Source: Chrysochromulina parva (lineage: Eukaryota > Haptophyta > Prymnesiales > Chrysochromulinaceae). From it: DNA of 23,403 nucleotides. The stretch covers positions 1 through 23,403 of the forward strand of contig PJAB01000587.1 of assembly GCA_002887195.1 (NCBI GenBank). Reading direction: 5' to 3'. The notes under the pieces are model-generated. The model worked only from the letters and a program-made list of their open reading frames with translations. It was not told the DNA's origin and made no database searches. This document shows positions 2,969-23,403 of this stretch, piece by piece. A program made the translations under genes and the position numbers. The stretch's first letter is position 1. Every line of letters begins with the position of its first letter.

Positions 2969-3428
2969 CTTGGCGCGGCTCGAGACGCGCTTGCGTCTCG
3001 TCGTGGCAGATTTCTCAGTCCGCGGACCACTTCTGTTTGAAGAGTTTAGGAGAGCAGCGCGCGCTGACCGCATTATATTTCCGTTTCAGCGCGCACGTGC
3101 GCGGCGGCACCCGTGACCCGAACACACCGCCTTCAAATTCTGTCAGTGGAGGAAAAAGAGGGCCGGCATTTGCCATTTCCACTTGTGCCGTCCGGCGCCG
3201 TTCCGTTGCTGTTCCGTGAGAAAATCGTGTGGAGCCCTTGGTTGTTTGTGGAGTCGTGCGACATGTTGGCGACGTGGTTTTCATGGCGGTTTTAAGTGCC
3301 CGCGCCCCCCCCCCCTCGCCGTTGGCCTCGCCCTTGGGAATGTGTGCTCAGATGGCAGCGATCCTTCAAGTTTAGAAATTCCACACCCAAAAAGACTGAC
3401 GAAATTCGAACGAGGTTATCGTCCTTCA
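2969..3428. other. Intergenic, no gene seen
   Basis: The stretch contains a C homopolymer near 3305 and nothing I can identify as coding. The frame of the following oxygenase is open back into it but has no in-frame ATG before 3429. The promoter of the oxygenase gene must lie here. Confidence 0.5.
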
Positions 3429-4139
3429 ATGGCCTTGCCACGAATCGCTACCCTCGCGCGCCGCCCGCGTGTACGCCAAATCGAAGGTTTTCTGTCGATA
3501 TCCGATTGCGAAGCGCTGCGCAAGCTCGCGTCCGGAAAGATGGGTGCCTGTGAGCTCTTGGCCGATGCTGAGTTTTCGCACGAGCGGTCTAGCACCGGTT
3601 GCTGGCTCCCACGCTACGACTCGCCGAGGTCCGCATGGCGCGACATCGGAGCTTCAGAAGCCGACATTGCACTTATGGGCCACGTTGAGCTTTCTTTGGC
3701 CAAGGCGTGCGGCTATCCGGCCTCTCATGGTGAGCCGGCGCAGATCCTCCGCTACCGAGTCGGCCAGCAGTACATGCCACACCCCGACTTCTTCGACCCG
3801 CTCGATCGCGAAGCGCTTGCGAACGGTGGCCAGCGTCTGCTCACGTGCCTCGTCTATCTCACGACGCTCCCGGCCAGCTGCGGCGGCGCAACATGGTTCA
3901 CGACAGGACTGCGCGTACAGCCGGTCGCGGGTCGTGCTCTCATCTGGCACAACTGTCGAGTCGATGGTGCTGTGGATCCGAACAGCGTGCATGCGGGCGA
4001 GCTTGTATCGAGGCCGAAAGCTGGCGAGGAAGCGCGGGAAAAGTGGGTGCTCAGCAAATGGGTGCGACAGCGACCGTTTGAAGTGGACCACTCGGCGTTT
4101 CGCATAGAGCCGCAGGGCACGTCAGCGGGACCACGGTAG
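3429..4139 (+). CDS. 2-oxoglutarate/Fe(II) oxygenase, prolyl 4-hydroxylase-like
   Basis: 236 residues. The order of motifs is that of the prolyl 4-hydroxylase alpha-subunit catalytic domain: PRVRQIEGFLS strand and helix, RSSTGCWL substrate-loop region, ILRYRVGQQYMPHPDFFD with iron ligands H118 and D120, the LVYLTTL strand, GGATWF, then NSVHAGELV with iron ligand H188, and KWVLSKWVRQRPF with K205 as likely 2-oxoglutarate anchor. All core residues are present, so it is probably active. The family hydroxylates prolyl residues in wall or secreted proteins, or in signalling proteins; the substrate cannot be told here. No clear signal peptide follows the ATG at 3429, so a cytosolic location or a missed upstream exon is possible. 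The frame is open further upstream but has no ATG. Confidence 0.85.
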   Translation: MALPRIATLARRPRVRQIEGFLSISDCEALRKLASGKMGACELLADAEFSHERSSTGCWLPRYDSPRSAWRDIGASEADIALMGHVELSLAKACGYPASHGEPAQILRYRVGQQYMPHPDFFDPLDREALANGGQRLLTCLVYLTTLPASCGGATWFTTGLRVQPVAGRALIWHNCRVDGAVDPNSVHAGELVSRPKAGEEAREKWVLSKWVRQRPFEVDHSAFRIEPQGTSAGPR

Positions 4140-6213: not shown

Positions 6214-7530
6214 CTACAGGTCAGACTCCTTCTTGACACGAATGCCTTTGCTGCCGACCTTGCGCTTCGCAAAGACGGCGGCAGGTGCGTCGTGCAGCGC
6301 TGCTTCGGCCGCGGCCGCCTCCGAGGCCTGCTGCAGTGCGACCGCTCTCTGCATCTCCTCGCTCACCGGCAGCCTCACCTTGAGATCGTCGAGAGCGGCG
6401 GCTTCCTCCTCCTCCTCCTCCTCCTTTCGATTGGTCGCCCACGCGACGCGTTGCCGCTTCTCTGACGGTCGATCGTAGCCCCACCCGCCCTCCGGCGTCT
6501 CCCCCGTCTCGACGGCTTCCCATGCGCCCAGGCCTGTCACCACATCCACGGCGCCGACCACCGCGCCTGCGTCCGCGCCAGCTGCCGCCTCGAGCTCCTC
6601 TCGGTAGCGTTTCTGCTCGCGCTCCGTCTGCATCTCGTGCTGCTGAGATTGAATCTCGTGCTGCTGAGATTGAATCTCGTGCTGCGACGTCGGGAGCGCC
6701 TCGGCGTGCTCGTGGACCTGAGATTGAATCTCGTGGACCTGAGATTGAATCTCGTGGACCGCCGGATCACAGGCGCTGCTGCTGCCGCCGCCGCCGCCTC
6801 CGCCGCCGCCGCTGCCGAGAGCACTGGTGCCGCCACCGCCGCCACCCAACCACTCGGGCGGTGGCTCCCATTGGGTGAGGGCCCGCTCGACATGGTAATA
6901 GTAGGGCAAGCCCTGCTCGTTGTAGCCCTGCTGCCATCCGCCCGATACGGCGTTCGTCGCGGGCGGCGGCTCGCTGCTGCTCGCGCCCTGTGCCGACGGC
7001 CTCGCTGCACTTGCCGACGGCCTCGCTGCGCCTGACGCCGGCGCGCCTGTCGCCGCCGGTGCGCCCGGCTTCTCCCATTGCATCGCGCCGTTCTCGTCGT
7101 TCATGAAGAAGACCTTGCCGTCGGGATTGGTCATCGCGCGCCAGCCCGCGGGCAGAGCTCCGCCGCCCGCAGCCGCGCTAAAGGCGCGCGCCATCCGATC
7201 AGCCGTCATGCGGGCTTCCAATTCGGCGAGCCGAGCCGCACGGTCCGCGGGCACCTCAGCCTTAGCAGCCGGGCGCGCCTCCTTGGCAACGTCGTGGTGC
7301 ATGTAATCCTTGAGCGCGTTCCTCTCGATCTTGTCCATCTCCTTTTGGAGATCGCTCTGCTCGATCCGCCTCTCGCGTCCACGCATTCGCATGTCGCGCA
7401 GAGAGAGCTCCACGATCTCCTTGTGCTTCTTGCCATTTTCGTGGAAGGCGATCGACGACTTGTTGCCCGCGATGTAGATGCGGCAGTACTCGCACCAGTG
7501 GCGCGCTTGCGAGACCCAGTACTCCGTCAT
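6214..7530 (-). CDS. WBP4/FBP21-like spliceosomal protein: U1-type zinc finger and two WW domains
   Basis: 438 residues, intronless. Residues 2-40 match the U1/matrin-type zinc finger of WBP4: YWVSQARHWCEYC with ligands C13, C16, H30, H36 and the GKKHKE end. A charged helix follows. WW domain 1 spans about 127-155 (LPAGW to W152-P155) and WW domain 2 about 197-225 (GGW to W221-PPP). WW domains of this family bind Pro-rich splicing factors, and WBP4 joins the activated spliceosome. Between WW2 and the C-terminus are a Gly run and repeated HEIQSQ units. The C-terminus (KRKVGSKGIRVKKES) is basic, as in WBP4. The ATG at 7530 is preferred over a frame start further upstream because it matches the family's N-terminus. 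It ends toward the gene-poor stretch and begins 565 bp from the next minus gene's stop. Confidence 0.88.
   Translation of the reverse strand: MTEYWVSQARHWCEYCRIYIAGNKSSIAFHENGKKHKEIVELSLRDMRMRGRERRIEQSDLQKEMDKIERNALKDYMHHDVAKEARPAAKAEVPADRAARLAELEARMTADRMARAFSAAAGGGALPAGWRAMTNPDGKVFFMNDENGAMQWEKPGAPAATGAPASGAARPSASAARPSAQGASSSEPPPATNAVSGGWQQGYNEQGLPYYYHVERALTQWEPPPEWLGGGGGGTSALGSGGGGGGGGGSSSACDPAVHEIQSQVHEIQSQVHEHAEALPTSQHEIQSQQHEIQSQQHEMQTEREQKRYREELEAAAGADAGAVVGAVDVVTGLGAWEAVETGETPEGGWGYDRPSEKRQRVAWATNRKEEEEEEEAAALDDLKVRLPVSEEMQRAVALQQASEAAAAEAALHDAPAAVFAKRKVGSKGIRVKKESDL
6632..6760. repeat. 21-bp coding repeats (HEIQSQ)
   Basis: Two clusters of 21-bp units sharing GAGATTGAATCTCGTG on plus encode HEIQSQQ and HEIQSQV repeats in the WBP4-like protein. 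An acidic helical insert separates the clusters. In-frame expansion is likely. Confidence 0.85.
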
Positions 7531-8095
7531 GTTGGTGGCTGGAACAGGTTCGTTCGGGCCCACACCTAGTCGAGGTGCTCCCAAACGCGTACTACATCCA
7601 TGGGTCGTCTAGCTAGAGACGAAACATGAAAACTTTGCTGTGAATTGAGAAAAGGTCAGCTCAGAGCGACACACGCGAACGCGCATCGCCTCGGCCACGA
7701 CCACACGTCTGTGAATTGCCAGCATCCTCTTCCCTCTTGCTCAAGAGCGTTAATTAAGAACTTGAATGATGACGCACCGCAAGATGCGATGATGCATGGC
7801 GAATGGCGGTCGCAAAAATCAAACGAGTTTGGTGCTCGTTGCTCGATAACTGCGTGTGAAGGCAAGACGCAAGAGCTATTCTCTGTGTGCGGAATCAAAG
7901 GCAGACTGAGACTCAATTGCTGAGTCCTGAGACTCTCTTCAAGTGTGTCTGAGTCTCTTCAAAAAGCGTCAGTGCAATTGCGACAGGAATCGACGTTATG
8001 TTATTAATCACTGGGCACCCCTGACCCCAGCCTGTATACACTAAAACTTTCCCGGACCTACAGTGGCACCACTGCCGACGCGCGTCAGTGAACTG
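7531..8095. other. Intergenic, no gene seen
   Basis: About 565 bp, AT-richer than the coding DNA. It holds the promoter of the WBP4-like gene and the 3' region of the next minus gene. A short imperfect direct repeat (GACTCTCTTCAA / GAGTCTCTTCAA near 7930-7962) is the only structure noted. Confidence 0.5.
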
Positions 8096-8884: not shown

Positions 8885-9145
8885 GACGGACAAGTAGGTG
8901 CTGAATGAGGTCCTTCGACAGCGCCGCCGCGGCCGAATGAAATGCCGAATGTCTCGTCGCGTGTCCGCGAGTTTGGAAATCTGTGCTGACCTTTTCGAGC
9001 AACTTTGACAGCCTGAATCTCAAAACCCTCAGGCAAGCCCGCACACAGCAAAGTGGAGCTATATGTGTGGAGGACCTCGCATGCATGCGTACTTTCTGAC
9101 CCGCGGACGTCACAAGAAACTTAGTAACCGGTACGTCCAACGGGC
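8885..9145. promoter_or_regulatory. Divergent intergenic region
   Basis: The 261 bp between the start codons of the minus hypothetical gene and the plus PRMT gene must contain both promoters. No TATA box or other clear element is recognised. Confidence 0.35.
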
Positions 9146-12100
9146 ATGCTGCGCAGCCTGAGCCGGTCCCGCCAGTCCCCGACTCCAGGCCCCGCTGGGC
9201 TCAGGCGCAGCCTAAGCCCTGCGCCAGGTCCCGACGGCCCGAGAAGCCCGAAAAGCCCCGCCGACTTCGACGGGCCGCCGCCTCCAAGCCCACCGAGCCC
9301 CACCGACGGCGACGGGCCGCCGCCTCCGAGCCCAGAGCTGCAGCCTCCGAGCCCAGCGACCCGTCATCAGCCTGCTTCGGCCACCGTCGCCGACAAACTC
9401 GCACGCATCGGTTCCATGCTGCGGCGAGAACAGGACCCGATGGCATTCGGCCACCTGCAGCGGTCGCTGCACCTCAACCCGGGCGCGAGCGCAGTCTGGA
9501 AGACGCTGGGCCACGCCCTCGCGCAGGACGGCCGCACAGGTGCTGCAGCGGCTGCCCTCGGGGCGGCGGTAGCCTCTTCGAATGGTAGCGACCTGGCGGC
9601 GCGCACGGGGCTCGCCACGGTGCTTGCACAGCAAGGACGTGCGAGCGCGGCTCTCGATGAGCTGCTCGCCGTACGGCGTGCCGCTGGCGAGGTGTCGTCG
9701 GCCGCCATCCTGATGGCAGGCCCATTCGAGCGCCTGTGCCGCAAGGTTGTGCCCGGCTACCGGCTCTCCTGCATGCAGAATGAGCAGCGCGTGGCGGCGT
9801 GGACGAGCGCGCTCAAGGCGGTGTGCCCTCCGCACGCGCGCGTGCTCGACCTCTCACCGACGCCGATGGTGGCCTTGCTCGCGGCGAAGCATGTCGACGT
9901 GCATCGGCCGGTGGTACGCGTCGAGGGGCTGCCGCCATCCGTGACGGACGAGCTCATCGAGTGCAATGGGCTACTCGGCGTCGAGCCACCGGCAATGCTC
10001 CTGCTGCCCTCGCCCCGACCGCGCTCCGATGGCAGCACCGATGCGCGCGCGTGGCCGCCGACGAGCGGCGTGTGGGAAGATGCGAGCGGCGAGCCGCGGC
10101 CGGCGAACGTCATCCTTGCCGACACGGACGCGCACGACGTGTTTGATGGCGCGTACCTGCCCCGACTCGAGGTCGCACGCGGCCTCGCCCCGGGCAAGGC
10201 GCTCCTCATGCCAGATCGGATCGAAATTTGGGTGGCGCTCGTGCAGAGCCGCGACCTCATGCGCCTCAACCAGGTGAATGGCTCACGCGGCGGATTCGAC
10301 CTGAGCTCGCTCAACCGATACTGCCGCCGCTCGCGCGCTGTGCAGCTCGGGTCGCTCACCATGGAGATGATCACCCAGCCAACGCTCGCGTTCACGATGC
10401 GCGTGAACGAGGTCGTCAGTCGGAACCCGACGACGTACTCGCCCCTCGCGCAGGGGTGCGCCGAGGTGGATCTGGAGGTTATGGCGGCGGGGGAGGCACA
10501 CGCGCTACTTGTGTGGCATACGATCCATTTGACAGCTGCAGCCGATGGGCCGCGCATCACCACTGGACCCGCTGGCACGGGCTCGGTGAGCGCGGACGCG
10601 GCAGCGAGGCAGGTCGCATACTTTCTGTGGACGGCCACGGAGGACGAGGTCCAGTGGCATGAGGAGGGCCCTCTGCTGGCCGGGCTTGGGGCAGAGGCCC
10701 AAAGCGCCGCTGCGAGGGCCTCGGGAGACGCCAGGGCGGCGGCTGATCATGCGGCCATCGCAGCCCGTGCTGCTCGGGAGGCATGCACGAGAGAGGCGAT
10801 CCTCCGACCCGAGGTGACCATCTCGGAAGAGGAAGAGGAGGCGGGGGAGTGGGGTTGGAACGAGCAGGAGGCGGGGGGGGATTGGAACGAGGTGGAGGAG
10901 GAGGAGGAGGAGGAGGAGGAGGAGGAGCTCGTAGCAGTGGACGGTGAGGCTCGCGATGCGAAGGGGGATCTCGACGTGAGCGAGGAGGCACGAGCAGCGG
11001 CGAAGGCGGCGCAGAAGGCGGCGCGAAAGGCGGAGAGGAAAGCTGCACGCAAGGCCGAGCGTAAGGCGGCGCGCACGGCCGAGAGCCGCGGGCTTCGCAG
11101 GATGCACGAGCATTCGGTGCGATTGGTGGATGCGGCAGAGCGTGCGTCCGAGGCCGCTTCCGCTGCGAGCGCCATGGCTGCGTTGTCTGCGCACGAGGCC
11201 GAGGCAGCGGTCTCGGAGCTCGGGCGGCTGATGCAAGAGGACGCCGGTGACTTTCGGCGGATGCGTGTGGCAAGGGCGCTCGGGCAGGCGGTAATGCGAG
11301 CAAGCACGGCTGCAAAGGAGGCGGCCGCGTCCGCCGAACTGGGCGCACGCCAGGCGCTCGAGCCGCGCGTGCGGGACGGAGACGAGGACGGAGACGAGGA
11401 CGAGGATGAGGATGAGGATGGCGAGATGGAGCACGCGACGCGCTTGCCCGTGCACCCGCTTTCCCGTGCAGACGTGGTCCGAGGGAAGACGCAACTGGAC
11501 CCGACGGGTGCGCACGAAGTGCCACAGGAGGCGACCGATCCCGGCGTCCCCGAGCTCGCGCCGGGGGAGGCGCTCGAGCCTCCAGAGGGCATTGGCTCCT
11601 TGGGCGTGCGTCAAGGGCAAGTCGTCCACCTGACGATGCGCTGGCAGCCGCGGCGCCTCGCGGTCCAGCTGAGCTCGGGCAATGTGAAGGCGACACGCGA
11701 GCACGAGCGTACTCTCGTGCGTGCGCGGCACACGCAGCGCCAGCTGGTCGCCAGGGCAAAGGCGGCGAGGCTCGAGGCGGAGCGCACTGCGGCGAGCATG
11801 CCCACGATCGAGTACGAGGGTCCCCCGCGCTCCGGAGTGCACTCGTTCAATGACGCGGACAAGGGGAGGCTCTTCTTTTCGTCGGTGCTCGGCTCGGAGG
11901 TGCATCTGGCGGTGAAGGACCCCTCCCTGGGTGCTGGTGCCACTCGGAAACGCTCCGGCAGCATCATCACGCTCACGCCAGAAGGGGAGGCCGCTGCGAA
12001 GGCATCTATCCTCGACAAGGGAGCCAGGGTGAGCGGCAGTGAGAGCCTCACCACCATACTCCACCTATTCGACCGCGATTCGGGCAAACTCGTCCAAATC

Positions 12101-13609
12101 CCCTTGTGCGACATCGTGGCGGCACGGCTGGTGCAAGAGAAGGCAATCCAAATGGCCACGGCCGCCGGACTCCTCGACGACCTCAAGTCGCACGAGCTGG
12201 CTCAGAAGACTCTCGCGGCGTCCGAGGAGCTCGGCGTTCAAGTCGTGGCCGCCAAGGAAGCTGAAATCGCCGCCCTCGCCGCCGTCGTCGCTGCCAACCG
12301 ACCGCTGCATCTGTGCGCCATGACCGGACCCATGGAGAGCGCCGTGTTGAGCGGTCAGAATAGGCTGGGGAGTCGGCCGGCCCCTCTGAGCGAGTATCAC
12401 TTCCCCATGGTCAACGATACGCATCGGAACAACGCCTTCCACAGCGCCCTCGCCCACGCGATCAACGAGACGCGCCCGGAGCTCGTGCTTGATATTGGCG
12501 CAGGCACGGGGCTACTGGGCATGATGGCGGCGCGGGTAGGCGCGACTCGCGTTCTCGCGGTCGAGATGGCGCCCGAGCTCGCGCGGATCGCACGGGGCAA
12601 TGTGACCGAGCATGGGCTGGACGAGCGCGTGCGTGTGCTCGAGTGTCACTCGACTCACCTGAAGCTCGATGTCGCCTCGGCCGATCCATGGAAGCGCACC
12701 GCCTCGATGCTCGTCTTCGAACTGCTCGGCTCCGACCCGCTGTGCGAGGGACTGCTACCCGCGCTCCACGACGCGCGCAAGCGGCTGCTCACCCCTGGCG
12801 CGCAGGTCATCCCGGCGGAGCTCGAAGTGCACGTGGCGCTCGTTCAGAGCGAGCAGCTCGCACGACTCAACTGCACGGCGGCGCCCGTCGGTGGGATGGA
12901 CGTGAGCGCGCTCCGGCGCGTGGCTCACCGGGTGCGTCCGGTGCGCCTATCCGACGTGGCGCATACGGTGCTCTCTCGACCCTGCGTGGCGGTCCGAATG
13001 AAGCTCGATGACCCGATCCAGCTGCCCGCGCTCTCGGGCGGCACGCACATTGAGCTCAAGGCGGAGCTCAATGGTACCGTACATGCGGTCGTCGCGTGGT
13101 TCGTCGTGTACCTTGACCGCGCGCGCACGATTGCCGTGAGCACGGCGCCCGGCGTCGAGGAGCCGATGAGAGGTTATTCATGGGGCCAGGTGTGCCACCA
13201 CCTGCCCGCTGGGGGGTGCGTGCTACGAATGGGCGAGCAGATGCACGTGCACACGCAGTGGTCTGAGAGGGGCGTACACCTCTCAGCGACGCCACACCCG
13301 GGCGTGGTCAAGCTCGACGTGGACCTGAGCGGCTCGGACGGCTCCATCACGCGCAATCTGCTCTTCCTCCGCTCAGGCAACGAGGCAGGACAGAAGATTC
13401 AGGCCGAGATGCAAGCGCAGAGGGAGGCGACGGCCAAGGAGGAGGCGGAGCTAGCGGCACGCAGCGGTGACTGGAAGCGCGGGATGGAGTTCCGAGGGTC
13501 GTTCGAGGACCAGATCAAGATGGCCGACAAAGAGCGCACCAAGGACGAGAAGAACAAGAAGGAGATTGAGAAGCGCAAGGCGAAGCGGAGGGCAGAAGCC
13601 CTCAAGTAG
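9146..13609 (+). CDS. TPR protein with tandem PRMT domains, PRMT9/PRMT7-like
   Basis: 1487 residues in one exon. Residues 1-80 are Pro/Ser-rich. Residues 97-175 form TPR-like helices (DPMAFGHLQRSLHLNPGASA onward). A first methyltransferase-like unit covers about 195-510, but its SAM motif I reads VLDLSPTPMVALL and its double-E loop ILADTDAHDVFDG, so key Gly and Glu residues are gone. A charged, Ala/Lys- and Glu-rich insert follows (about 520-1080). The second unit (about 1080-1430) has intact features: MVNDTHRNNAFHSAL, motif I VLDIGAGTGLLGMMAA with D1116, AVEM, double-E loop FELLGSDPLCEGLLP, and AWFVVYLD in the THW-like position. Both share VALVQSxxLxRLN, showing internal duplication. PRMTs transfer methyl groups from SAM to arginine; TPR plus two units resembles PRMT9. 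The C-terminus is a basic coiled coil. The start is the first ATG; downstream is a convergent gene. Confidence 0.85.
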   Translation: MLRSLSRSRQSPTPGPAGLRRSLSPAPGPDGPRSPKSPADFDGPPPPSPPSPTDGDGPPPPSPELQPPSPATRHQPASATVADKLARIGSMLRREQDPMAFGHLQRSLHLNPGASAVWKTLGHALAQDGRTGAAAAALGAAVASSNGSDLAARTGLATVLAQQGRASAALDELLAVRRAAGEVSSAAILMAGPFERLCRKVVPGYRLSCMQNEQRVAAWTSALKAVCPPHARVLDLSPTPMVALLAAKHVDVHRPVVRVEGLPPSVTDELIECNGLLGVEPPAMLLLPSPRPRSDGSTDARAWPPTSGVWEDASGEPRPANVILADTDAHDVFDGAYLPRLEVARGLAPGKALLMPDRIEIWVALVQSRDLMRLNQVNGSRGGFDLSSLNRYCRRSRAVQLGSLTMEMITQPTLAFTMRVNEVVSRNPTTYSPLAQGCAEVDLEVMAAGEAHALLVWHTIHLTAAADGPRITTGPAGTGSVSADAAARQVAYFLWTATEDEVQWHEEGPLLAGLGAEAQSAAARASGDARAAADHAAIAARAAREACTREAILRPEVTISEEEEEAGEWGWNEQEAGGDWNEVEEEEEEEEEEELVAVDGEARDAKGDLDVSEEARAAAKAAQKAARKAERKAARKAERKAARTAESRGLRRMHEHSVRLVDAAERASEAASAASAMAALSAHEAEAAVSELGRLMQEDAGDFRRMRVARALGQAVMRASTAAKEAAASAELGARQALEPRVRDGDEDGDEDEDEDEDGEMEHATRLPVHPLSRADVVRGKTQLDPTGAHEVPQEATDPGVPELAPGEALEPPEGIGSLGVRQGQVVHLTMRWQPRRLAVQLSSGNVKATREHERTLVRARHTQRQLVARAKAARLEAERTAASMPTIEYEGPPRSGVHSFNDADKGRLFFSSVLGSEVHLAVKDPSLGAGATRKRSGSIITLTPEGEAAAKASILDKGARVSGSESLTTILHLFDRDSGKLVQIPLCDIVAARLVQEKAIQMATAAGLLDDLKSHELAQKTLAASEELGVQVVAAKEAEIAALAAVVAANRPLHLCAMTGPMESAVLSGQNRLGSRPAPLSEYHFPMVNDTHRNNAFHSALAHAINETRPELVLDIGAGTGLLGMMAARVGATRVLAVEMAPELARIARGNVTEHGLDERVRVLECHSTHLKLDVASADPWKRTASMLVFELLGSDPLCEGLLPALHDARKRLLTPGAQVIPAELEVHVALVQSEQLARLNCTAAPVGGMDVSALRRVAHRVRPVRLSDVAHTVLSRPCVAVRMKLDDPIQLPALSGGTHIELKAELNGTVHAVVAWFVVYLDRARTIAVSTAPGVEEPMRGYSWGQVCHHLPAGGCVLRMGEQMHVHTQWSERGVHLSATPHPGVVKLDVDLSGSDGSITRNLLFLRSGNEAGQKIQAEMQAQREATAKEEAELAARSGDWKRGMEFRGSFEDQIKMADKERTKDEKNKKEIEKRKAKRRAEALK
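10985..11055. repeat. 71-bp Lys/Ala-coding segment shared with the G-patch gene
   Basis: Near copy of 1665-1735 in the same frame, inside the charged insert between the two methyltransferase halves. It is followed by further AARKAER units. Confidence 0.8.
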
Positions 13610-14072: not shown

Positions 14073-17000
14073 TCACAGGATGACCTTCACGGTCTGCCTC
14101 GACAAGTCGCGAAGCAGCATGCGCGTGTCCTCATCGAGCGAGTTGAAGCGCAAGTCACAGTACGTGAACGACGGGTTGGCCGCGATCGCATCGGCGATGG
14201 CCTTGCCACCCTTGAGTCCGACGAGATTGCCGGAGATGTCGAGCTCGGCGAGCGATGGATTTCGTCCGAAGGCCTCGGCGATCGCCTTGCCACCCATGGC
14301 GCCGATGCCGTTGTACGCGATGCCGAGCTTCTTGAGAGATGCGCACTTGCTCACCTGATGAGGGGGCCATCAGGCGCGCCATCGGGTGCAATCAGAGAGG
14401 CCAACAGCTTCAGAGGCCGGCCGCTCTCGCTGAGCTCGCACTCACCGCGCCGGCGAGCCCGACGAGGCCCTCCATGCTCACTTAATGAGGGGGCCATCAG
14501 GCGCAATCAGGCGCAATCAGAGATGCCATCACCGCGTCCGCGAGCCCGACGAGGCCCTCCATGCTCGCGATGCGCACGCCGTGCAAGTAGCTCACGCCGA
14601 GCGAATTCTGCGAGAGGTCGAGCTTGGTCAGGCACTGACTGGCGCGGAGTGCCGTAGCGAGGCCCACCAGGCCGCGGGACGTGTACTCTCCGCAAAAGTC
14701 GCCTCGCTCGAACCAGACGCCGCACAGTCGGTTGGCAGAGAGATCGAGCTGCATGGGTTGTGCTCAGAGAGGCGACCATCAGTTGTCAGCGCTCGTCAGA
14801 GGGCATCAGAGGGCATCAGAGGGCATCAGAGGCCACCAGAGGCCAGCAATCACCTGCGTGAGGCACGTGCTCCTGCGCAGCCCCTCGGCCACCATCAAGA
14901 GCTCATCCGCGCCGAGCTTGTTGCCGCCGAGCCCTATGGCGAGGGTGGCACGCATGAGCTGTGCCACTGCGAGCATCGAGGTCGGTAGATCGCCGCCGAT
15001 CTTGCCCTTGAGCTCGAGCTCGAGCTCCGATCTCGTCGAGAGCTCCGATCTCGGCTTCGTGAACTCGGGGGAGGAGCCCTCGCCCGAGACGGCGCGTCCG
15101 CCCGAGACGGCGCCATCACTCTCATCAGAGACGGCGCGGAGCAGCCCGCGCCCGAACCGATCGCCCATCTCGGCGCCCAGCCGGAGGGTATTGCGCCACC
15201 ACGAGCTCCATCGCCATGGGGCGCCCACGTTGGGCGGAAGGCGCCGCCCGTCGGCGATGCTTCGGGCCGTGTAGTATTCCTGGAAGGAGAGGTGCGACGA
15301 CTGCATCTGGTACGGCTCCGATTGGAGCAGCGTGAAGAGCGGCAGCTTATCGGCGGCAACGCGACGGAGCATCGCCTGTAACGTCTCGCGCAGCTCGGCG
15401 GGGAGATTCGCGCATGCAGCGCTCACGGCGGCGCGTCGCTTCGCCCTCTGGCTCGTCTCAAACTGGCGGCCGCTCGCCTCGTCCAGACCGGAGGAGCGGA
15501 AGTCGACCTCACGCAACATGTCGCTCATCCTGCCATCGCTCATGACGACACGAAACGGTCGCGCGCTCACAACGCCGCGCATCCCAATGTGTGGCCCTGC
15601 GAGGATCTCGACGTAGTGTCCCTTGGCCGCACGTCCCTCGAAGTGGGGAAGGTCGCACCGGATGGCCGCGAGGACTTCGGGCGCGAAGAGTCCGAGCGCC
15701 GCCTCCTCTAAATGGAAGGTGGTTATGACGCGCCGCTCGGCCGCATGCGCCTCAAAGAATACGGCCTGCACCATGCCATCGAGCGGGACCGACTTGCCAC
15801 GTATGCGGCCCCAGCCGTTCAGCGCCTTGAAGGAGCCAGACGTGTTGGCGAGTTTGCGCTTGAGGATCGCGATGCCTTCTCTCTCGAGGATCACCGCGGT
15901 AGCCTGGTCGTAGAGCGCCACAGTCGTCTCCGGCATCTCCACCCGCACGAGATCGCGCTCGACTGCTGCCGAGGCGGCCGCGTTGCCGCCCCCGCCTCCG
16001 CCCCCGCCTCCGCCCCCTCCATCCCCTCCTCCATCCCCGGCCGCAGCTTTGAACACTTTCTCCCATCGGCGATCTCGCTGCTGCTCGAAGATCGAGATTG
16101 CGACGGAGAGCATCAGAGGGTTGGCTGTGAGCCGATACCCTGTCTCGACGTCGAGGGGGACCTGACGGGAGAGGTGATCAGAGGTCATCAGAGACGTCGA
16201 GGGGGGCCTGATGGGAGAGGTCATGGGAGAGGTCATCAGAGGCCATCAGAGAGGTCATCGGAGAAGCGATCACCTTCTCGAGCAGGTAGCGGGGGAGAGC
16301 CTCAACCGCCGCCCCCGCTCCCAACCGCTTCTCGATCACGTCGAGCTGCTGCCTGTCCGTCAGAGGGCACAGGCGCAGGTGCCAAAAGTGCTCCTGGAAG
16401 CGGCTCGCGTCCAGTCCGGCTGGGCGCGACGTGACAACTATCACATGACCCTGCGGTGCGAGCACCTCGGTCACGTGCCGCTCGATCACGTCGCGCACTT
16501 GGCCGCCCTCGTCGATCCCATCGATGAGAAGGATCGCGCGGCGCGAGCTCATAGCTTGACGAAGCATAGCGTAGAGATCGGAGTTGCGCCCATGCTCCAT
16601 CTGCCATAGGTGGGGGAAGGGGGGAAGGGGGGTGGAGAGGCGGTGTGAGGGGTAGAGGGGCGGAGAGGCGGTGTGATGGGTAGGGGGATGGAGTTGTGGT
16701 GTGATTGGCACGCAGAGAAGCACGCCGCTAGTCATCCTCTCCACCTGTAGGTGGGCGTCCACAAAGTTCCACGCGCTCGCAAACGGATTCGTATCGGCGC
16801 TCATAGACTTCGTTGTCCGACGTCGTTCGTTGAGAAGATGCGCTTGGAGCAGCTGCACGCGCACAAGGATCGGGACGAGGGGCGAGCGCTCGTCCTTGAT
16901 GAGGGACGTAATCAACTGCGACATGAGGCACGTCTTGCCTTGTGCAGCCTCAGCGGTGAGCAGCACGCATGCGCGCCCTTTGGGGGCTTCTGCCTTGCTG

Positions 17001-20000
17001 CACAGCGCCGCCTGCGTCGCCTGCAGCCACGAGGCCAAGCTCGCCACGTCACTCACGCTCCCTATCGGTCCGAGGCTAGCTGCGGTCTGGGCCGGTTGGA
17101 GCACTGGCGCGAGGACGGTGGGCACGCATTGCTTGATGACGTCGAGCCGCCGGCCGGTCAAGGCATCGACGAGGGTTGCATGTGCCGTCTTCATCGCGCG
17201 CACGTGGCGCGCCTTGAGTGCATCAAACCGGTGAGCCGCGAGGTCGGCAGGGGCGTGGTTCCAAGGATGGAGCGCCAGGCTAAAGGGGCTCCCGTCTGAG
17301 AGGAGCTTGAGCTTATGCTCCCCATCGACTGTCTTCACCTCACTCGCGAGCGTCTTGGCGACGGACCCCTGATGAGGGCGGCAGTCGAAGGCAGTCAATG
17401 GCAGTCGAAGGCAGTCGAAGGCCATCGAAGGCGCCATCAGAGGCCATCAGAGGCCATCAGAGCATCCACCTGCCCTCGCTCCGTGCCGGGATTGAGTGCT
17501 TGCCACGCGGAGCCACGACATCGCATGCTCTCGGCCGCGCCGCCCGCGCCGCCCGCGTCGCCCGCGTCGGCTACGCGGCCTGGGCCATCGCTCGCGATCG
17601 AACGCGTCCTCGCCGCTGCCGGTGGCGGCTGTGTGCGAGAGGGGCCATTCCCAAGCTGCTCCTCGTCCATGAGCTCTGGCGGCTCGATGACTGACACGTC
17701 CTGCCACTCAGTGCCGCTGTGAACGGACAAGCGCTGCCCGACGGCGTACCTGATGAAGGAGGCAATTACACGCAATCAATCGCAATCAACCGCGGCCCGA
17801 CGGCGACCCCGAGGAGGGAGGCAATCAAATGCAATCGGTGCTCGACAGCGTACCTGCGCATTCCGAGCGCGCCGGTCGCCCGCAGCTCGCGCAGGAGCCA
17901 CTCTTCGATGACCTGCTCGAGCCTCGAGCGATCAACGGTCATCGCCCGCAACAGCGCCTCGCGAAAGCTCTGAACCGAGGCGGCGGTCGCGTCGGCCGTC
18001 GCCTGTGCGGCCTTGGCGGCACTCGTCTCCGCGGCGACGGCCGTTCTCTCGGCAGAGAGCTGGGCCGCGTGGCGCATCGCTCTCGCGCGCGCAGCCGCAT
18101 CGGCAGCCATCTCCTTGAGGGTGATGCTCGCTAGCCTGGCCTCTTTGGCTGCAAGGAGCGCGTCCGCGGCGGGGCTGTTCTTCGAAAAGTCGCCCCGTTC
18201 CTCCGCCTTGGCGTTCGAGATTGCGAGCTCCTCCGCCTTGGCCACCGCCGCCTTCTCGTCGACGATCGACTGCGCCGCCTTCTGATCTATCGCCTCCATC
18301 TGGTCCTCCGCCGAGCTCGCCATCGCCGCATCGTTCTCCGACTCGAGCACCTTCTCCGCCAGCGCACTCGCAGCCGCCGCGGCCTGTGCCGCCGATCGTT
18401 TGGCCGCCCCTCGCGCGTCCTCCGTCGCTTGCTTCACTCCGAGCACACCCTCGCTAGTCTCCTCGAGGAAAGTGCTCAGCGCCTTGGAGCTCGCCTGGGG
18501 CAGGGTGCGGGTGAGGGCGATGGTGAGGGTCGGTGGCGAGTCTCTACGAGGGGAGCCTTGAGCCATTTCCTCGAAAGTCGCCTTCACTCCTCATTTGGAA
18601 GTCGAAGGAGGTCGCCTGCACTCGCTCAGCCATCCAAAAGGGCATCCATCGCAATCCATCGCAATCAATCCCGATCAATCCCAATCAATCCCAATCCATC
18701 GGGGCTCGCCTGCAGCCGCTTGAGCTCGGCCACCAGCTTCTCAGCCGCCGCGGCGAGGTCCCGACGTTCCGCCGTCACGGCATCGTCTTTGCTCGTCGCC
18801 GTGCTCCCATCGAGCGCCGTCTTGGGCGCGATCTCGAGCACGATCTTGGCTCCGAGGCCCATGAGCTCGTTGAGCGTGTCAAAGCTGCGCTGGGCGGCAC
18901 GGAGCACGCTCGACACGGCGCCCGGCTCGGGCGCCTTCCACGGCAGCACCGCCTGGTGACAGCTGTCGAAGTCCATGCGCATCTCGGTCTGATCCAAGCC
19001 AAAGAGGCATGCTAACCGCTTGCCGCCCACGAGGACGCGCGCGAGCCGCGTCACGCCCTCAGCGCCGCTCAGTCGCACCGACCGGTCCGCCACAAACGCC
19101 ACGCGTTCACCCGCGGCGAGCCTCACCTGCGAGACCGCCTTGCCAGCCAAGTCGGGTGGCGGCTCGGTCGGCGGATGCTCGAAGCTACAGCTGAGCGCGA
19201 TCGCAATCCTCTGCGCAGCGTGGAAGGCGACTCGCTTCTGCCACTTGCCCAATCGGGACGAGTGAAGGCTCTGGAGTGCCTGCGAGAGCATCGGCATCAA
19301 TAGCGAGGCCGGGTGCAGGTCAGCCGCGCACGCCGTTGCCTCGACGTCATCGCCGTCAGCCCCAGCGGTGGCGAGCTGCTCCCGTAACGAGCACTTGGCC
19401 GTGAGCTCGCACGCGAGATCGAGGATGCGCATGCAGAGCCGGAGGGCAAGCTGCGCGTGGGAGGGCCACTGCTGCGCCGCCTGTGGAAGGAGAGCAATCG
19501 CATGCATCCATGTGGAACGCACATGGAGACACACTCCGTGAGGCCAATCAGCCACCATCAGGGGCAATCAGGGTCAATCAGGGGCCATCAACGACAATCT
19601 ACGACAATCAGGGGCCACCAGGGGCCAGCAGGGGCAATCAGGGGTGGCAATCGATGGCACTATGAGCGACCCTCAGCGGAGGTCATAAGAGTGCTCATCC
19701 AGGCGCAATTAGTTAGCAATCAGTGCGCCCACCTGCTTCGAGAGCTCACGGCGAGCCATCTGCCAGAGCTCGGCCGGCTCGCCATTCGGATTCGGGCCGA
19801 GCAGCTCATCGACGACGCGAAACGCCTCGTGCATTCGCGCCGTGCACAACTTCTCATCGCCGAAGCGCGGGAGCACCGGCTTGATCTCTTCGTACGTGGG
19901 CGCATGCCCCGCGCACGCGAGGAGGAACTCGTTCAGGGTCGTGGAGTGGCAGGCGTGCTGGCGGAGCTGGGCGGCGGCCACGTGAGGCAGCTCGAGCAAC

Positions 20001-23000
20001 TCGGACAGCGTCGAGACGGGCATCGTGCTCACCTCGTCGATGCCAAAGGGCGTCGGGAACAGGTCGAAGAGCACCTGCATGCAATGAGGGAGGCCATCAG
20101 AGATCATCAGAGGATGCGACCAGATTCAATCTCAGAGCTCTTCAGGTCGGATCGTGCGAGCACCGTGCAGATGAGGCTGGCCGCGTCAACGAAGGGTGTG
20201 TGCAGCGCCGTCTCCGAAAAGTCGAGCAGCCACAGCATGTTGCGTGCATCGACCAAGACCTCGCCGCCGTGCAAGCTGCCGTGCTGTCCCACCCGCAGCG
20301 GGTGCCACGTGCTGAGCCACGCGCACGGGCCGCTCGGTCCGCTGGAGCGGTTAGGGGCGGTTGGCGAGCCTCCTCCCACGAGCTCATGTAGTTGACGAAG
20401 CAGGGCTACGAGCGGCCCGCATGCATCGGCATTCCACAGCGGCTCGTCGGCGTTCGGGCTCGGCCACTCGAGCACGAAACTGCTGCCAAACTGGCTCATG
20501 AGCGAGCCTACGCCGCCGCCGATGCATGCCGATGCATGCTGTGGAATGCCGTGGCGGCCCCCCTCGAAGGCGGCATGGCCGCTCTTTAAGGACTCGCACT
20601 CCTCGGCGGCGCCCATCTCGGCGCCCTCGCCTTGCCACCAAGCGTCGCCGTACACACGCCGCAGCTCGCACAGGCCCTCGTGCAGGCTGGCCGGCGGCTC
20701 GTACGCCTTCGCGGCTCCTTCGGTCCATTCGCGGCTCCTTCGGTCCATTCGACGGGCGGCTCCGTCGGTCCATTCGCGACGCTCGAACCTGATGAGGGAG
20801 GCCATCAGAGGCCATCAGAGGCCATCAGAGGCCATCAGAGGCCATCGGCATGCAATCAGGGACGGTCTTTTGTCCGCTCTTGGCGTGCTCATGGCTAGCT
20901 CATGGCGTGCGTACGGGGAGAGGAAGACGGCGCTGAGCTCGCGTGCGAGCTCACGCAGGTGCTGCAGCAACAGCCCGTCGGGCGCCGTCGCGGGCACAGC
21001 CGCGCGCCGGGCCTGGGCGAGCGCTATGTTGTTGAGCGGCCCCCCGGGTCCCCACAGCTCCTTGAGGATGTCTCCGTAACGTCCAAGCTGCTGGCCCGCA
21101 GCCGGCTGGACAGCACCACTGAGCCCGGGGACTCCTCCCTTGCCGCCGAAGGGCGGTGTCTTCGTGCTCGTGTTCGTGGCGAGTCCGGCGGCGCCGCTGC
21201 CCGCCCCAGCACCGCCGCCGCCACCGCCTATGCCTGGCGGCATCTTCATCGCCATCGTCGGGGCGCCCAACACGGCGCCAGTCAGGGGAGGCTTGGGCTT
21301 GCCGTCTGGCGCCGTGCTGGGCGTGGCCTTGAGGCCGTCGCTGCTATGACAGCTGCCCTTCGAGAAGGAGCTGCCGTCACTGCCCTTACTACTCGTGCTG
21401 CTCGTCGAGCGCGCGCTCTCCTGCCCGCCCTTGCTGCGCGCCGACTCGAGCCCGCCGCCCGCCCCGCCCTTTTGCTTGACCACGGGTGCAGGAGGGTTGA
21501 GCTGCGGCGACGTGCGGAGCATCTTGCGCAGCGAGAGGATCAACTCGACACGCGCCTGCATCTTGAAATGGAACTCGGGGAGCGCCCAGCAGGCACCCGC
21601 CGTCTCGAGCACGAACCCGCCCAGAGCTGCCGATGAGCTGCCCAGAGCTGCCGACGTGCTGCCTGGGGAAGCGACCCTCGGTGGGACAAAACCGTCGGGA
21701 CCGAGCGCCGTACCGAGCACGGACTGTGGGGAAGCGACCCTCGGTGGGACGAAACCGACGGGACCGAGCGCCGTACCGAGCACGGACTGGTTGGGAGCGT
21801 TGCTGAGCGAATGGAGGTCGTCCTCGGGCGCGCCCATCACTGTGCCGTCCTCCCCCTGCCCGGAGCCCTGCGGATCATTCACACCGGAGCCATGCGGGCC
21901 GTGAATGAGAGACAGCCCCTCACTCGCCGGCAGCTCACATTCGGCACCGGTGGCGTCCACGCCTATCGGCCCTCGCAGCACGCGCGCTGCGGACTCGCCC
22001 CGCACGACCTCGGCGATCTGACGCAGAGCCCGTGCCTCCCTCGCGATACGCGTGGCACTCCCGAGTACAGTGACCGTCGGCTCGTCGGGTTTGCCACGCT
22101 CATCGAAGCTCTCACTCTTCAGGAAGATCGCGTCGCGCCCAACACAGCGCCCCCTGATCGCGTGCCGCTCGCCGTGCACCGCATCCGCGACGCTCCCATG
22201 CATGCGGCTAAGCTCGACGCGCGACGAGCCGGTAAAGAGGCGCTGCACGAGCCGCAGCAGCGGCAGCGAGAGGGTCAACCCTCCCTTGAGCTCCACCACG
22301 AGCGCGTAGTACTCGGGGGGCAATGTGCCATCCCCGTCGACGCCGTCGCATAGCAGCACCTCGCCCTGACCTGCGACGGGGCGTCCGTGGTAGAAGGCAA
22401 CTCCATTGTCAATTGCACGGTGCACATCGACCCAAATATAGTAATCGCACGGTCGTGGTCCACTGCTGCTGCTGCTCACGCTCGCCGCCGTCTCGCGCCG
22501 CAGCAGCGGCGTGTGATGGCGCAGCATCCGTGTAAGCCCCAGCTTCGTCAAACTCTCCGCATGCATTCCGAACCAGCCGTGGACCGCAAGCGGCGGCGCT
22601 GTGGCGATGGTGAGTGGCATCGGCCTCTGATGACCGCTGATGACCTCTGATGACCTCTGATGATCTCTAATGGTGAGTGCCGTCGGCCGCGGCGCTACGC
22701 GCTCGGAGGCGGCGGGAGGGGAGGCGGCGGGGGAGGCAGAGGCGGGGGAGGCGGAGGCGGGGGAGACGGAGGCGGGGGAGGCGACGGCGGACAGAATCGG
22801 AGGGCTCTGCTGCTGCTGCTGATGATGATGATGGCTCTTGCTGCTACGCACCGCCTCCGCGCGGCTCGCACAGATCTCGAGGGCCGGGAGATACCATCCG
22901 AACGGCGACGTGTCGGGCGCGGGCTCACGCTTGATCGCACTGTGCAACGACGCTTCAATGGATGGAGACTCTTCCAAAGGGCGGCGTGTCGGTGTCCTGA

Positions 23001-23344
23001 GCGCTGTCCTGAGCGCCGCGTGGAGCGCCGCGGTCATCTCTGGATCCGCCTCCGGAGCCTCCGCCACCGCATCGTCATGGGCGTCGCCACTCTCTCTGGG
23101 CTCGTGCTTGCTGTCGACCTTGAGCACGGCGTCGTCATGGGCGTCGCCAGCGCCGCCCTCAGCCACCGTTGTGCGTTGGGAGCCCTCCCCCTCCCCCTTG
23201 CTTTCACCCTCCCCCTTGCCTTCCCCCTCCCCCTTGCCTTCACCCTCCCCCTGGCCTTCCCCCTCCCCCTGGCCTTCCTCCCCCTTTGCATCCGATCGTC
23301 CCCTCCCCCTCCGTTGGGAGCCCTCCCCCTCGCCTTCGATCGTC

Positions 23345-23403
<59 letters not shown>
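14073..23403 (-). CDS. NLR-like protein: Tpt1/KptA-like lobe, APH-type pseudokinase, coiled coil, NACHT, LRR; 5' end open
   Basis: Predicted exons, 5' to 3' on minus: >23403-20915, 20788-20164, 20074-19733, 19480-18710, 18581-17854, 17749-17470, 17368-16745, 16600-16274, 16161-14854, 14748-14533, 14354-14073. All ten junctions keep frame and each exon stays open, which is strong evidence for one gene. The first in-frame ATG at 23037 gives 2541 residues, but the frame continues upstream to the poly-C edge, so the true start may be outside. Numbering uses that ATG. Order: disordered region (1-150), Tpt1-like lobe (150-250), kinase-like region (about 300-960), helical and coiled-coil part (to about 1500), YAVGQ/LHPWNHAP module (1530-1705), NACHT (about 1754-2240), LRR (2346-2541). 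NACHT-LRR proteins are self-associating NTPase switches, often immune sensors; the front domains would be effectors or signalling parts. That role is inference. Separate gene models cannot be excluded without transcripts. Confidence 0.75.
14355..14532 (-). repeat. Intron 10, introner-like with a fossil exon fragment (178 bp)
   Basis: Donor GACGCG|GTGATG, acceptor CCTCATCAG|GTGAGC, phase 0. Plus 14453-14479 is an exact 27-bp copy of exon 10 sequence at 14540-14566, followed in transcription by its own donor-like GTGAGT and preceded by a decayed acceptor CCTCATTAAG. Two intron-like units therefore lie in tandem around a copied exon piece. Confidence 0.8.
14749..14853 (-). repeat. Intron 9, introner-like (105 bp)
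   Basis: Donor ACGCAG|GTGATT, acceptor CATGCAG|CTCGAT, phase 0. It contains TGGTGGCCTC and three TGATGCCCTC units. Splicing restores an LRR (CLTQ-LDLSANRL). Confidence 0.8.
16162..16273 (-). repeat. Intron 8, introner-like with duplicated acceptor and exon start (112 bp)
   Basis: Donor GAGAAG|GTGATC, acceptor CCGTCAG|GTCCCCCTCGACGTC. Inside lies a second acceptor copy, CCATCAG|GCCCCCCTCGACGTC, 46 bp upstream in transcription (plus 16193-16221 against 16147-16175). TGATGACCTC units fill the rest. Phase 0. Confidence 0.75.
16601..16744 (-). other. Intron 7, pyrimidine-rich, not of the CATCAG family (144 bp)
   Basis: Donor CTACAG|GTGGAG, acceptor CTATGGCAG|ATGGAG. Its length is a multiple of three with no stop, so retention would add 48 residues. 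Removal brings the NACHT strand before Walker B into normal spacing. It contains CACACCGCCTCTCC-type tandem units instead of TGATGG. Confidence 0.65.
17120..17749 (-). other. Unnamed pre-NACHT module (YAVGQRL ... LHPWNHAP)
   Basis: Exon 6 begins RYAVGQRLSVHSGTEWQDVSV, a small beta-barrel-like pattern. After a Gly/Ala-rich loop, exon 7 has HKLKLLSDG and LHPWNHAP (residues 1656-1663), then ATLVDALTGRRLDVIKQCV just before the P-loop. It looks like one folded unit interrupted by a loop and an intron. I recognise the motifs as a unit but cannot name the family. Confidence 0.45.
17369..17469 (-). repeat. Intron 6, introner-like (101 bp)
   Basis: Donor GGGCAG|GTGGAT, acceptor CCTCATCAG|GGGTCC, phase 0. 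It contains TGATGGCCTC units, then TTCGACTGCC units. Confidence 0.75.
17750..17853 (-). repeat. Intron 5, introner-like with three related exon-start copies (104 bp)
   Basis: Donor AG|GTACGCTGTCGAGC, acceptor CTTCATCAG|GTACGCCGTCGGGC. An internal copy GGTCGCCGTCGGGCCGCGG lies at 17791-17808, so the same 18-bp motif occurs three times (17732, 17791, 17836 on plus). TGATTGC units lie between. Phase 2, restoring Arg-Tyr-Ala-Val. Confidence 0.8.
17973..18515 (-). other. Ala/Glu/Lys-rich coiled coil
   Basis: Residues about 1310-1490 are almost free of Pro and Gly, rich in Ala, Glu, Lys and Asp, with long heptad-like runs (VLESENDAAMASSAEDQMEA, then KAEELAISNAKAEERG). This is predicted to be a long helix or coiled coil joining the front domains to the NACHT module, possibly for oligomerisation. 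Confidence 0.7.
18582..18709 (-). repeat. Intron 4, introner-like, apparent GC-AG (128 bp)
   Basis: The frame-keeping solution is CTGCAG|GCGAGC with acceptor GTGAAG|GCGACT. GCGAGC at the intron start, GCGACC internally and GCGACT at the exon start are related copies. GGATTGATTG repeats fill the 5' half. The more usual-looking acceptor GTGCAG|GCGACC would put the coiled coil out of frame. Confidence 0.55.
19481..19732 (-). repeat. Intron 3, introner-like (252 bp)
   Basis: Donor AAGCAG|GTGGGC, acceptor CTTCCACAG|GCGGCG, phase 0. The middle is a run of about ten TGATTGCCCC/TGATGGCCCC units. It is the longest of the set and ends with a more conventional acceptor. Confidence 0.75.
20075..20163 (-). 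repeat. Intron 2, introner-like (89 bp)
   Basis: Donor ACG|GTGCTCGCACG, acceptor TGCATGCAG|GTGCTCTTCG. Intron start and next-exon start are near copies (GTGCTC...CGACCTG in both). It contains TGATGATC/TGATGGCCTCCCTCATTG. A rival donor at GTCGCATCC would give the wrong frame. Confidence 0.7.
20164..20290 (-). other. APH-type kinase C-lobe, catalytic loop altered
   Basis: Residues 877-888 read HGSLHGGEVLVD and 895-899 LLDFS, followed by FVDAASLICT. In aminoglycoside phosphotransferase and choline kinase relatives these are HGDLHxxNhLhD and hIDFx, then DhAxL. The catalytic Asp is Ser here and the metal-binding Asn is Glu, while the DFG-like Asp remains. Splicing to the next exon gives ICT-VLFDLFPTP, a natural helix continuation. 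Probably a pseudokinase. The overall pattern recalls APH-like phosphotransferase domains seen with bacterial NTPase conflict systems. Confidence 0.6.
20711..20775. repeat. 20-bp coding repeat
   Basis: GCGGCTCCTTCGGTCCATTC occurs at 20711 and 20731, and a one-mismatch copy at 20756. It lies at the start of exon 2 of the NACHT-LRR gene. The 20-bp unit is read in shifting frames, giving REWTDGAARRMDRRSREWTE. Confidence 0.85.
20789..20914 (-). repeat. Intron 1, introner-like (126 bp)
   Basis: Donor CCCC|GTACGC, acceptor CCTCATCAG|GTTCG. It contains five consecutive units of the TGATGGCCTC type. Joining gives Pro-Phe-Glu-Arg in frame. Flank similarity is weak here. Confidence 0.75.
21665..21790. 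repeat. 63-bp coding duplication
   Basis: Two adjacent 63-bp units encode repeated 21-residue segments (QSVLGTALGPxGFVPPRVAS) in the linker of the kinase-like region of exon 1. Confidence 0.9.
21958..22140 (-). other. Kinase N-lobe-like segment
   Basis: Residues 300-360 read as strand-helix elements with an AIFLK (K307) and an IAREARALRQIAEVV helix, then RVLRGPIGV. This resembles the N-lobe of aminoglycoside-phosphotransferase-like kinases: a lysine strand, then a helix with a conserved Glu. The matching C-lobe is about 520 residues later, after a low-complexity insert and a segment FVLETAGACWALPEF. Assignment is by pattern only. Confidence 0.4.
22288..22590 (-). other. Tpt1/KptA/TRPT1-like ADP-ribosyltransferase-fold lobe
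   Basis: Residues 150-250 follow the C-terminal half of RNA 2'-phosphotransferases: VHGWF (H153; family HGT), KLGLTRMLRHH (H174/H175; family GLxxMxRxHIH), YIWVDVHRAIDNGVAFYH (family VFIDxxxALxxGIxFFxS), EVLLCDG (family NGVILTxG) and GTLPPEYY (family FLPPKYF). The N-terminal winged-helix half of Tpt1, with its LRH motif, is not recognisable. In the family this lobe binds NAD+ and transfers ADP-ribose to an RNA 2'-phosphate. Here it could have another target or be inactive. Confidence 0.65.
22607..22680. repeat. In-frame insert of the intron repeat in reverse orientation, with direct-repeat flanks
   Basis: ATGGTGAGTG is present at 22607 and 22670 on plus, 63 bp apart. Between them lie CTCTGATGACC units on the plus strand, the opposite orientation to the gene's introns. 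On minus it is an open 21-codon insertion just before the Tpt1-like lobe. Confidence 0.75.
22705..22790. repeat. Low-complexity Pro-Ala-Ser coding repeat
   Basis: GGCGGGGGAGGC-type units on plus encode PASASPAS repeats in exon 1, beside a short His/Gln run (22807-22833). A disordered linker. Confidence 0.85.
23188..23345. repeat. Gly-Glu coding repeat at the 5' edge of the large gene
   Basis: CCCTCCCCCTTGCCTT-type units on plus give, on minus in the gene's frame, GEGEGKGEGE-like repeats without stop or in-frame ATG. It may be coding (upstream of 23037) or leader. Confidence 0.7.
23347..23403. repeat. Poly-C run at window edge
   Basis: Fifty-seven consecutive C. It may be a real homopolymer, but a run this long at the edge is also typical of an assembly or sequencing stop. 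It limits any claim about the 5' end of the large minus-strand gene. Confidence 0.9.

Follow-up and report, generated by a model that had tools for sequence, protein, structure and literature searches.

Positions 14073 to 23403 of the window (the whole stretch of DNA analysed, i.e., 23,403 nucleotides of contig PJAB01000587.1 of the freshwater haptophyte Chrysochromulina parva) raise the question of whether one gene can join a NACHT-type ATPase and leucine-rich repeats (LRRs) to a front end related to the Tpt1/KptA ADP-ribosyltransferases and to kinases, and of what such a front end could do. An earlier note, made from the sequence alone, had described a minus-strand gene of eleven exons that are in frame with one another once ten introns are removed. 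This structure was reproduced: joined by script, the exons (23403..14073, minus) give 2634 in-frame codons, counted from the contig end, with a stop codon that ends at 14073. The protein is very large, as had been claimed, although the earlier length of "at least 2541" residues gives way to this count. Introns measure 89-252 bases and nine of the ten are GT-AG, intron 4 being GC-AG. When the model was aligned to four single-frame paralogs, seven of the ten junctions (aa 1039, 1410, 1623, 1925, 2034, 2470 and 2542) were continuous and flanked by conserved residues in one or more of them; at aa 1153 the flanks align, yet the model has four residues absent from most paralogs, at aa 830 the upstream side is conserved and the downstream side is poor, and at aa 1717 the alignment is poor and gapped. 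A search of the genome assembly (45 Mb, 2199 contigs) found both the front and the back half inside single open frames of 3235 (C404), 2840 (C362), 2667 (C880), 2611 (C102) and 2591 (C1204) codons: C404, C102 and C880 each unite ADP-ribosyltransferase (ART)-like, kinase, NACHT and LRR matches in one frame, and the kinase, NACHT and LRR parts are common to the frames of C362 and C1204. A JGI gene model (P0002, Chrpa1 17925) covers C404 as one protein and is 100% identical over 64% of the query. Because the paralogs hold both halves in an uninterrupted frame, the eleven exons are confirmed, as far as the in-frame model and these single-frame paralogs can tell, as one very large gene. The weakly supported junctions at aa 830 and 1717 could also mean that the model fuses two or more separate genes, the outcome that the earlier note had named as its own refutation, but the single-frame paralogs and the clean run over the other seven junctions make this extremely improbable.

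Several introns of this gene, for example 20914-20789 and 17469-17369, contain 10-base CTGATGGCCT-type repeats, and a 19-mer, CTGATGGCCTCTGATGGCC, has 356 + 317 occurrences in the genome vs 0 + 0 for a reversed control. In introns 2, 4 and 5 the two splice junctions share 7-9 identical bases, and with all ten introns pooled the observed junction-identity sum was reached in 23 of 20000 permutations; such splice-junction repeats are what intron-generating elements would leave. Elsewhere in the window there are a frame open at the contig start with zf-PARP (65.9 bits) and DUF5710 (41 bits) domains (1-603, minus), a G-patch (351-1775, plus), a 2OG-Fe(II) oxygenase (3117-4139, plus), WW domains with a U1-type zinc finger (6214-7608, minus) and a 1493-aa frame (9128-13609, plus) that is arginine methyltransferase-like, with PRMT_C, a methyltransferase domain and a weak TPR. 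Rfam had 0 matches within the window.

The back half agrees with the NACHT-LRR protein proposed in the earlier note, and the Walker A/B, TSRP, LSFQEY and LRR motifs are all found where that note placed them. Exon 7 (16745..17368, minus) contains the start of the NACHT with a Walker A-like TAEAAQGKT (within 16963-16925), and exon 8 (16274..16600, minus) continues it with the Walker B LLIDGIDEGG (within 16537-16502) and a sensor-1-like TSRP (within 16444-16415). In the window the Pfam NACHT score is 14.8 bits, below the cut-off of 26.7, and the assignment consequently rests on the paralogs. Relatives pass this cut-off as genome frames (C1122 34.3, C317 33.0, C404 30.3) and as proteins (P0011 27.8, P0009 28.3), C404 scoring 24.2 as a protein; the profile passes in 13 of 17 listed genome places, two of which need their neighbours to reach it, the family membership of all 17 not being established. 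In the family alignment, the GKT, DGIDE and TSRP of the window (AEAAQGKT, LLIDGIDEGG, VTSRP) fall in conserved columns, and the first glycine of the P-loop is replaced by alanine in the window, C404 and P0010. A family NACHT profile (A6) found no NLR in the PDB, where its two matches, both weak, were to other ATPases of the AAA type (best E 0.018).

Exon 9 (14854..16161, minus) codes for what would be, by analogy, the C-terminal NACHT helices, for SSHLSFQEYY (15300-15271) and for the first LRRs, which continue in exon 10 (14533..14748, minus; gene model and paralog alignment) and in exon 11 (14073..14354, minus), the latter carrying the best LRR_6 unit (aa 2573-2595, Pfam) and the stop codon. 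LRR_6 scores 30.2 bits in the window (cut-off 23.4), with five units between 14862 and 14136; in C404 the LRRs share one frame with the NACHT, and among the best 60 of the 74 PDB sequences matched by P0010 the best stretch is the LRR end. Within intron 10 (14355..14532, minus) the last part of exon 10 (MEGLVGLA) recurs almost unchanged, and the model leaves this duplicate out; splicing past it gives the LRR continuation seen in C404 (paralog alignment). Upstream of the NACHT, exon 4 (18710..19480, minus; gene model, tblastn) codes for a conserved, putatively helical region of the family, exon 5 (17854..18494, minus) for an Ala/Glu/Lys-rich stretch that is probably a coiled coil by the composition of its translation, and exon 6 (17470..17749, minus) for a small-barrel-like segment, GQRLSVHSGTEWQDV (~17736-17695; the fold is a guess), followed by a linker.

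The kinase-like part is spread over three exons: its N-lobe (21994..22299, minus; family alignment and tblastn to paralogs) lies in exon 1, most of its C-lobe in exon 2 (20164..20788, minus; family alignment) and the end of the C-lobe, with the region after it, in exon 3 (19733..20074, minus; gene model and paralog alignment). In the window protein there is no match at E<=1 to TCAD9, APH or any other Pfam kinase family, so this assignment also comes from the paralogs. The paralog C558, scored as a protein, reaches 57.3 bits for TCAD9 (cut-off 40) and 28.3 for APH (cut-off 23.2), its stretches scored apart giving 36.7 and 25.1 bits, and a tblastn comparison relates the window to it (E 9.3e-22, query 667-808); TCAD9 is above cut-off in C558, P0009, P0011, P0016 and P0017. 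Four motifs, GGxSGSL, PTV(T/L)K, HGDLN and IDFA, occupy aligned columns in C558, C317, P0008, P0010, P0012 and P0016, and P0015, which begins after the N-lobe, keeps HGDLN and IDFA. At these columns the window has altered loop residues, PTVTV (22086-22060), HGSLH (20292-20263) and LLDFS (within 20235-20212), i.e., the catalytic lysine, the aspartate of HGD and the aspartate of IDF are V, S and D, respectively. By the usual motif criteria this predicted domain is a pseudokinase. HGD is also altered in C404 (HGS), C880 (HGN), C362 (HGS) and C1204 (HAN), and C102 is intermediate (K replaced by R, HGDL retained, IDFA changed to ADLA). A kinase profile of the family (A7) found no PDB match at E<=0.1.

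In front of the kinase, exon 1 (20915..23403, minus; aa 1-829), which apart from the kinase N-lobe is otherwise made of linkers, one of them of low complexity, contains a degenerate Tpt1/KptA NAD lobe of the ART fold (22306..22680, minus). In the joined protein, PTS_2-RNA reaches 27.6 bits (cut-off 26) and covers profile positions 72-167 only (Pfam); among the homologs, P0018 is above the cut-off (30.2) and P0019 (24.1) and P0020 (25.5) are just below it. When the window lobe, P0019, P0020 and C404 were combined into a profile, hhalign matched it to Tpt1 of yeast and mammals with 92% probability (E 6e-7, 77 columns). A comparison of the window ART with profile A1 was discarded as circular, since A1 contains the window row. 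Other searches gave less: against the PDB a head profile (A8) had 9 matches at E<=1, none below 0.58 and the top one to a low-complexity sequence, and four NCBIfam RNA 2'-phosphotransferase models match P0006, all far under their cut-offs; the predicted models of the homologs P0019 (head) and P0017 (a Nudix-kinase sister) have a mean pLDDT of 32.1 and 37.6, too low for fold comparison. The paralog C558 has a much fuller domain (169.3 bits, profile 2-177), and at E<=0.001 it retrieves 13 PDB sequences, every one an RNA 2'-phosphotransferase; downstream of its Tpt1 part there was no PDB match at E<=0.01. It retains LLRH, NDKQRF, HGT, MERHHIHL and SGMR, and the residue that follows SGMR is His, as reported for Runella in the part of a paper that was available. 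C102 (113 bits) keeps LLRH, HGT and SGMR, with other changes. On this basis the window head is, as predicted from its motifs, a degenerate Tpt1 NAD lobe followed by a pseudokinase; the earlier note had proposed an ART-fold lobe plus an APH-like pseudokinase, which PTS_2-RNA, the homology to C558 and the kinase motif losses uphold.

As a correction to that note, the front end is truncated. A 57-base poly-G run on the minus strand occupies the contig end (23347..23403), and from about here two homologs located on other contigs, P0019 and P0020, reach further towards the N-terminus and carry the Tpt1 RNA lobe. RNA lobe and NAD lobe are set apart by a long low-complexity insert, inside which the window contig breaks, and since the frame is open up to the poly-G end, the true start of the gene probably lies outside the window. 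A search of the assembly for the missing RNA lobe yielded a single weak hit (E 6.8e-4) of 29 residues that is interrupted by a stop and was not accepted.

The catalytic state of the head was judged from the Arg-His-Arg-Arg tetrad, whose positions in these proteins were assigned from motif context, and from HGT. By inspection, C558 has them all; in the window and its homologs they are incomplete. The window keeps HG, MLR and SGPR (in HGW, within 22587-22564; MLRHHTP, within 22533-22507; and SGPR, within 22470-22444; minus), and the threonine of HGT is tryptophan in the window, P0018, P0019 and P0020. The counterpart of LLRH is LLWH in P0019 and LLCH in P0020 (Arg to W or C), followed by TDGW, and PRYEL (P0019) and ARYDL (P0020) were taken by eye as counterparts of QRFEL, the aligner having left them unpaired; these motifs indicate that one tetrad arginine is lost and that the other two have probably been kept. 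C404 (HGW) and P0001 (YGW) have likewise lost the threonine and retain LMRH. According to the accessible text of PMC6333775, loss of the RNA-lobe arginine slows step 1 of Runella Tpt1 380-fold, and a yeast Tpt1 mutant without both the His and the Thr of HGT is lethal, a double loss, whereas the window loses the Thr alone. ADP-ribose chemistry, which the earlier note had suggested, is thus unlikely for the window copy on these motifs (HGW in the window, and the arginine replaced in P0019 and P0020), and the idea suits the family better than this gene because the sister C558 has intact motifs. The head could still be an active ADP-ribosyltransferase with a changed chemistry and an acceptor other than 2'-phosphate RNA, given that the NAD lobe, the HGT His, the tetrad Arg of this lobe and the SGxR Arg are retained (hhalign match) and that the lobe is strongly conserved in P0019; the shared Thr to Trp change and the replacement, in P0019 and P0020, of the arginine whose loss slows the Runella enzyme make us regard this as unlikely.

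The losses in both heads raise the further possibility that the gene is a decaying paralog, as would the exon piece duplicated in intron 10. Comparison with P0019 points the other way: identity is 106/109 in the NAD lobe, 87/102 in the kinase N-lobe and 29/30 in a block at aa 591-640, vs 139/174 and 76/117 in the flanking linkers, so that the altered lobe is 97% identical and one linker 65%. These protein-level figures, which are not a codon test, suggest that the altered NAD lobe is under constraint. Lobe and linker differ little when P0020 is compared (91/98 for the NAD lobe, 166/185 for the linker), which leaves some room for decay, and P0018 is almost identical throughout and gives little information. 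The joined model runs without a stop across its 2634 codons, and C404 and P0001 share the loss of the HGT threonine yet keep LMRH, and a pseudogene is accordingly considered quite improbable.

The window gene belongs to a family whose putative domain order is shown by the comparisons above to be a Tpt1/KptA ADP-ribosyltransferase fold, a TCAD9/APH-type kinase fold, a helical region, a NACHT-type ATPase and LRRs. The heads differ among members: ART-type heads have their motifs kept in C558 and C102 and altered in the window, C404 and C880; C317 has a Nudix head (24.8 bits, cut-off 21.1); the relatives P0016 (20.5) and P0017 (18.0) fall under that cut-off, C362 has a weakly similar stretch and C1204 no recognisable head. 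C842 has a Tpt1 piece at a contig end without a kinase after it in its frame, and C102 has a Tpt1 domain, NACHT and LRR in a single frame. C558 is spread over several frames, with NACHT pieces that lie further downstream along the same strand, outside the head frame, and no LRR was detected at its locus. P0009 and P0011 have TCAD9 and NACHT above cut-off, and their Tpt1 pieces (NAD lobe in P0009, RNA lobe in P0011) sit after TCAD9, in mid-protein, whereas in C558 and the window Tpt1 stands at the front. Taken together, the heads seem to vary on a common kinase-NACHT base. Variation of heads on a shared base resembles defence families. In a NACHT tree of 17 rows, C558 not being one of them, the window (C587) joins C404 and P0001 (90/88), and six forks are unresolved.

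Protein searches, which scored the 8000 candidates sharing most words, listed five relatives in ENA, 13 in JGI and three in EukProt. Scans of GTDB species genomes and of IMG/VR, each with two short peptide patterns that distant relatives can escape, found no relatives: the patterns, from two alignments, matched 27 and 163 stretches in the former and 20 and 50 in the latter. PADLOC gave two weak matches (E 0.0026 and 0.0089) in one of four proteins, which were not used. Two further features were seen among the paralogs: C880 (L058) has, by eye, repeated C2-like segments, and its kinase and NACHT are separated by a charged, coiled-coil-like stretch of great length, and C317 (L059), C1343 (L047) and C73 (L048) have in common a FWDF/FWDY block, possibly a further domain in NACHT proteins.

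These observations are best accommodated, with moderate confidence, if the window gene codes for a pseudoenzyme-headed NLR-like switch, in a haptophyte family that also has sisters with intact heads. On the model of NACHT proteins, the LRR end would sense a signal or hold the protein off, and ATP-driven assembly of the NACHT would gather several copies, bringing their heads together; the template for this switch is the layout of bNACHT proteins, described in the consulted portion of PMC12169576 as an N-terminal effector, a central NACHT and a C-terminal sensor. A head of the C558 type, judged by its motifs, could modify RNA or protein, spending NAD+ and ATP. The window copy, because both of its heads have lost catalytic residues, would most likely have a binding role, serving an intact sister as decoy, scaffold or helper, and the His and Arg residues left in its head may still allow it to bind NAD+, ADP-ribose or RNA ends. 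Several points count against this reading: the sub-cut-off NACHT of the window, a NACHT profile that finds no NLR in the PDB, the low-confidence models, the weak contrast with P0020, and C558 being in several frames with no LRR there. Tpt1 being an RNA enzyme, and the immune role resting here on analogy, the protein might instead be a large RNA-processing or housekeeping scaffold with a NACHT ATPase, but this fits poorly with a multigene, diverse family whose heads may be Tpt1, Nudix (C317) or none recognised (C1204) and in which the C842 Tpt1 piece lacks a following kinase in frame, and we hold it to be rather unlikely.

A more specific version of the pseudoenzyme-headed switch is possible but doubtful: in an NLR-type defence of haptophytes, an intact head of the C558 type would hit RNA or NAD+ upon NACHT assembly, and the pseudoenzyme sisters (the window, C404) would serve as baits or helpers, detecting interference with that chemistry. 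If true, Tpt1 would have a role outside tRNA splicing and NLRs a new effector class. The role of Tpt1 in bacteria, outside fungal tRNA splicing, is termed a longstanding conundrum in the section seen of PMC6333775. With intact and altered heads in one haptophyte family, Tpt1 chemistry under the control of an assembly switch becomes testable, and the family also allows NLR-type defence to be tested in planktonic algae, among them C. parva, a host of lytic viruses (PMC12085832, as partly available). In the literature searched, mainly titles and the beginnings of abstracts, there was among the matches listed no description of an NLR with a Tpt1 head, in line with the earlier remark that this combination is unfamiliar among described NLRs, and no relevant paper on Chrysochromulina NACHT or haptophyte NLRs; the words KptA, TCAD and haptophyte are absent from the accessible part of PMC7159879.

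Compared with known systems, the closest likeness is to NACHT-LRR proteins (animal and fungal NLRs and bNACHT), with which the family shares a central NACHT-type ATPase with a GKT P-loop and a DGIDE Walker B, a TSR sensor-like motif, C-terminal LRRs and a variable N-terminal head. The usual heads of NLRs are PYD, CARD, TIR, HET or nuclease domains. The window family differs in its head (a kinase fold of the TCAD9/APH type preceded by a Tpt1 fold), in the long region between head and NACHT and in its phylum, Haptophyta. Green algae have NACHT proteins as well, although the text seen of PMC4773052 describes NACHT-WD40 in Chlamydomonas and, in that extent, leaves haptophytes and Emiliania unmentioned. 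TCAD9 has been linked to bacterial vWA-MoxR-VMAP systems in a figure legend of PMC10910872, the single real mention among the matches listed in the papers as far as they were available; as in TCAD9/APH kinases, C558, P0009, P0011, P0016 and P0017 have the glycine loop, K, HGDLN and IDFA, whereas here the domain is part of a eukaryotic NACHT protein and in the window HGD has become HGS and the K a V. With Tpt1/KptA the family shares the domain itself, C558 keeping the residues checked and the window HG, the NAD-lobe Arg and SGxR; it differs in that the domain stands at the front of an NLR-like protein, that the window is without the HGT Thr and its homologs without the LLRH Arg, and that the two lobes are split by a low-complexity insert.
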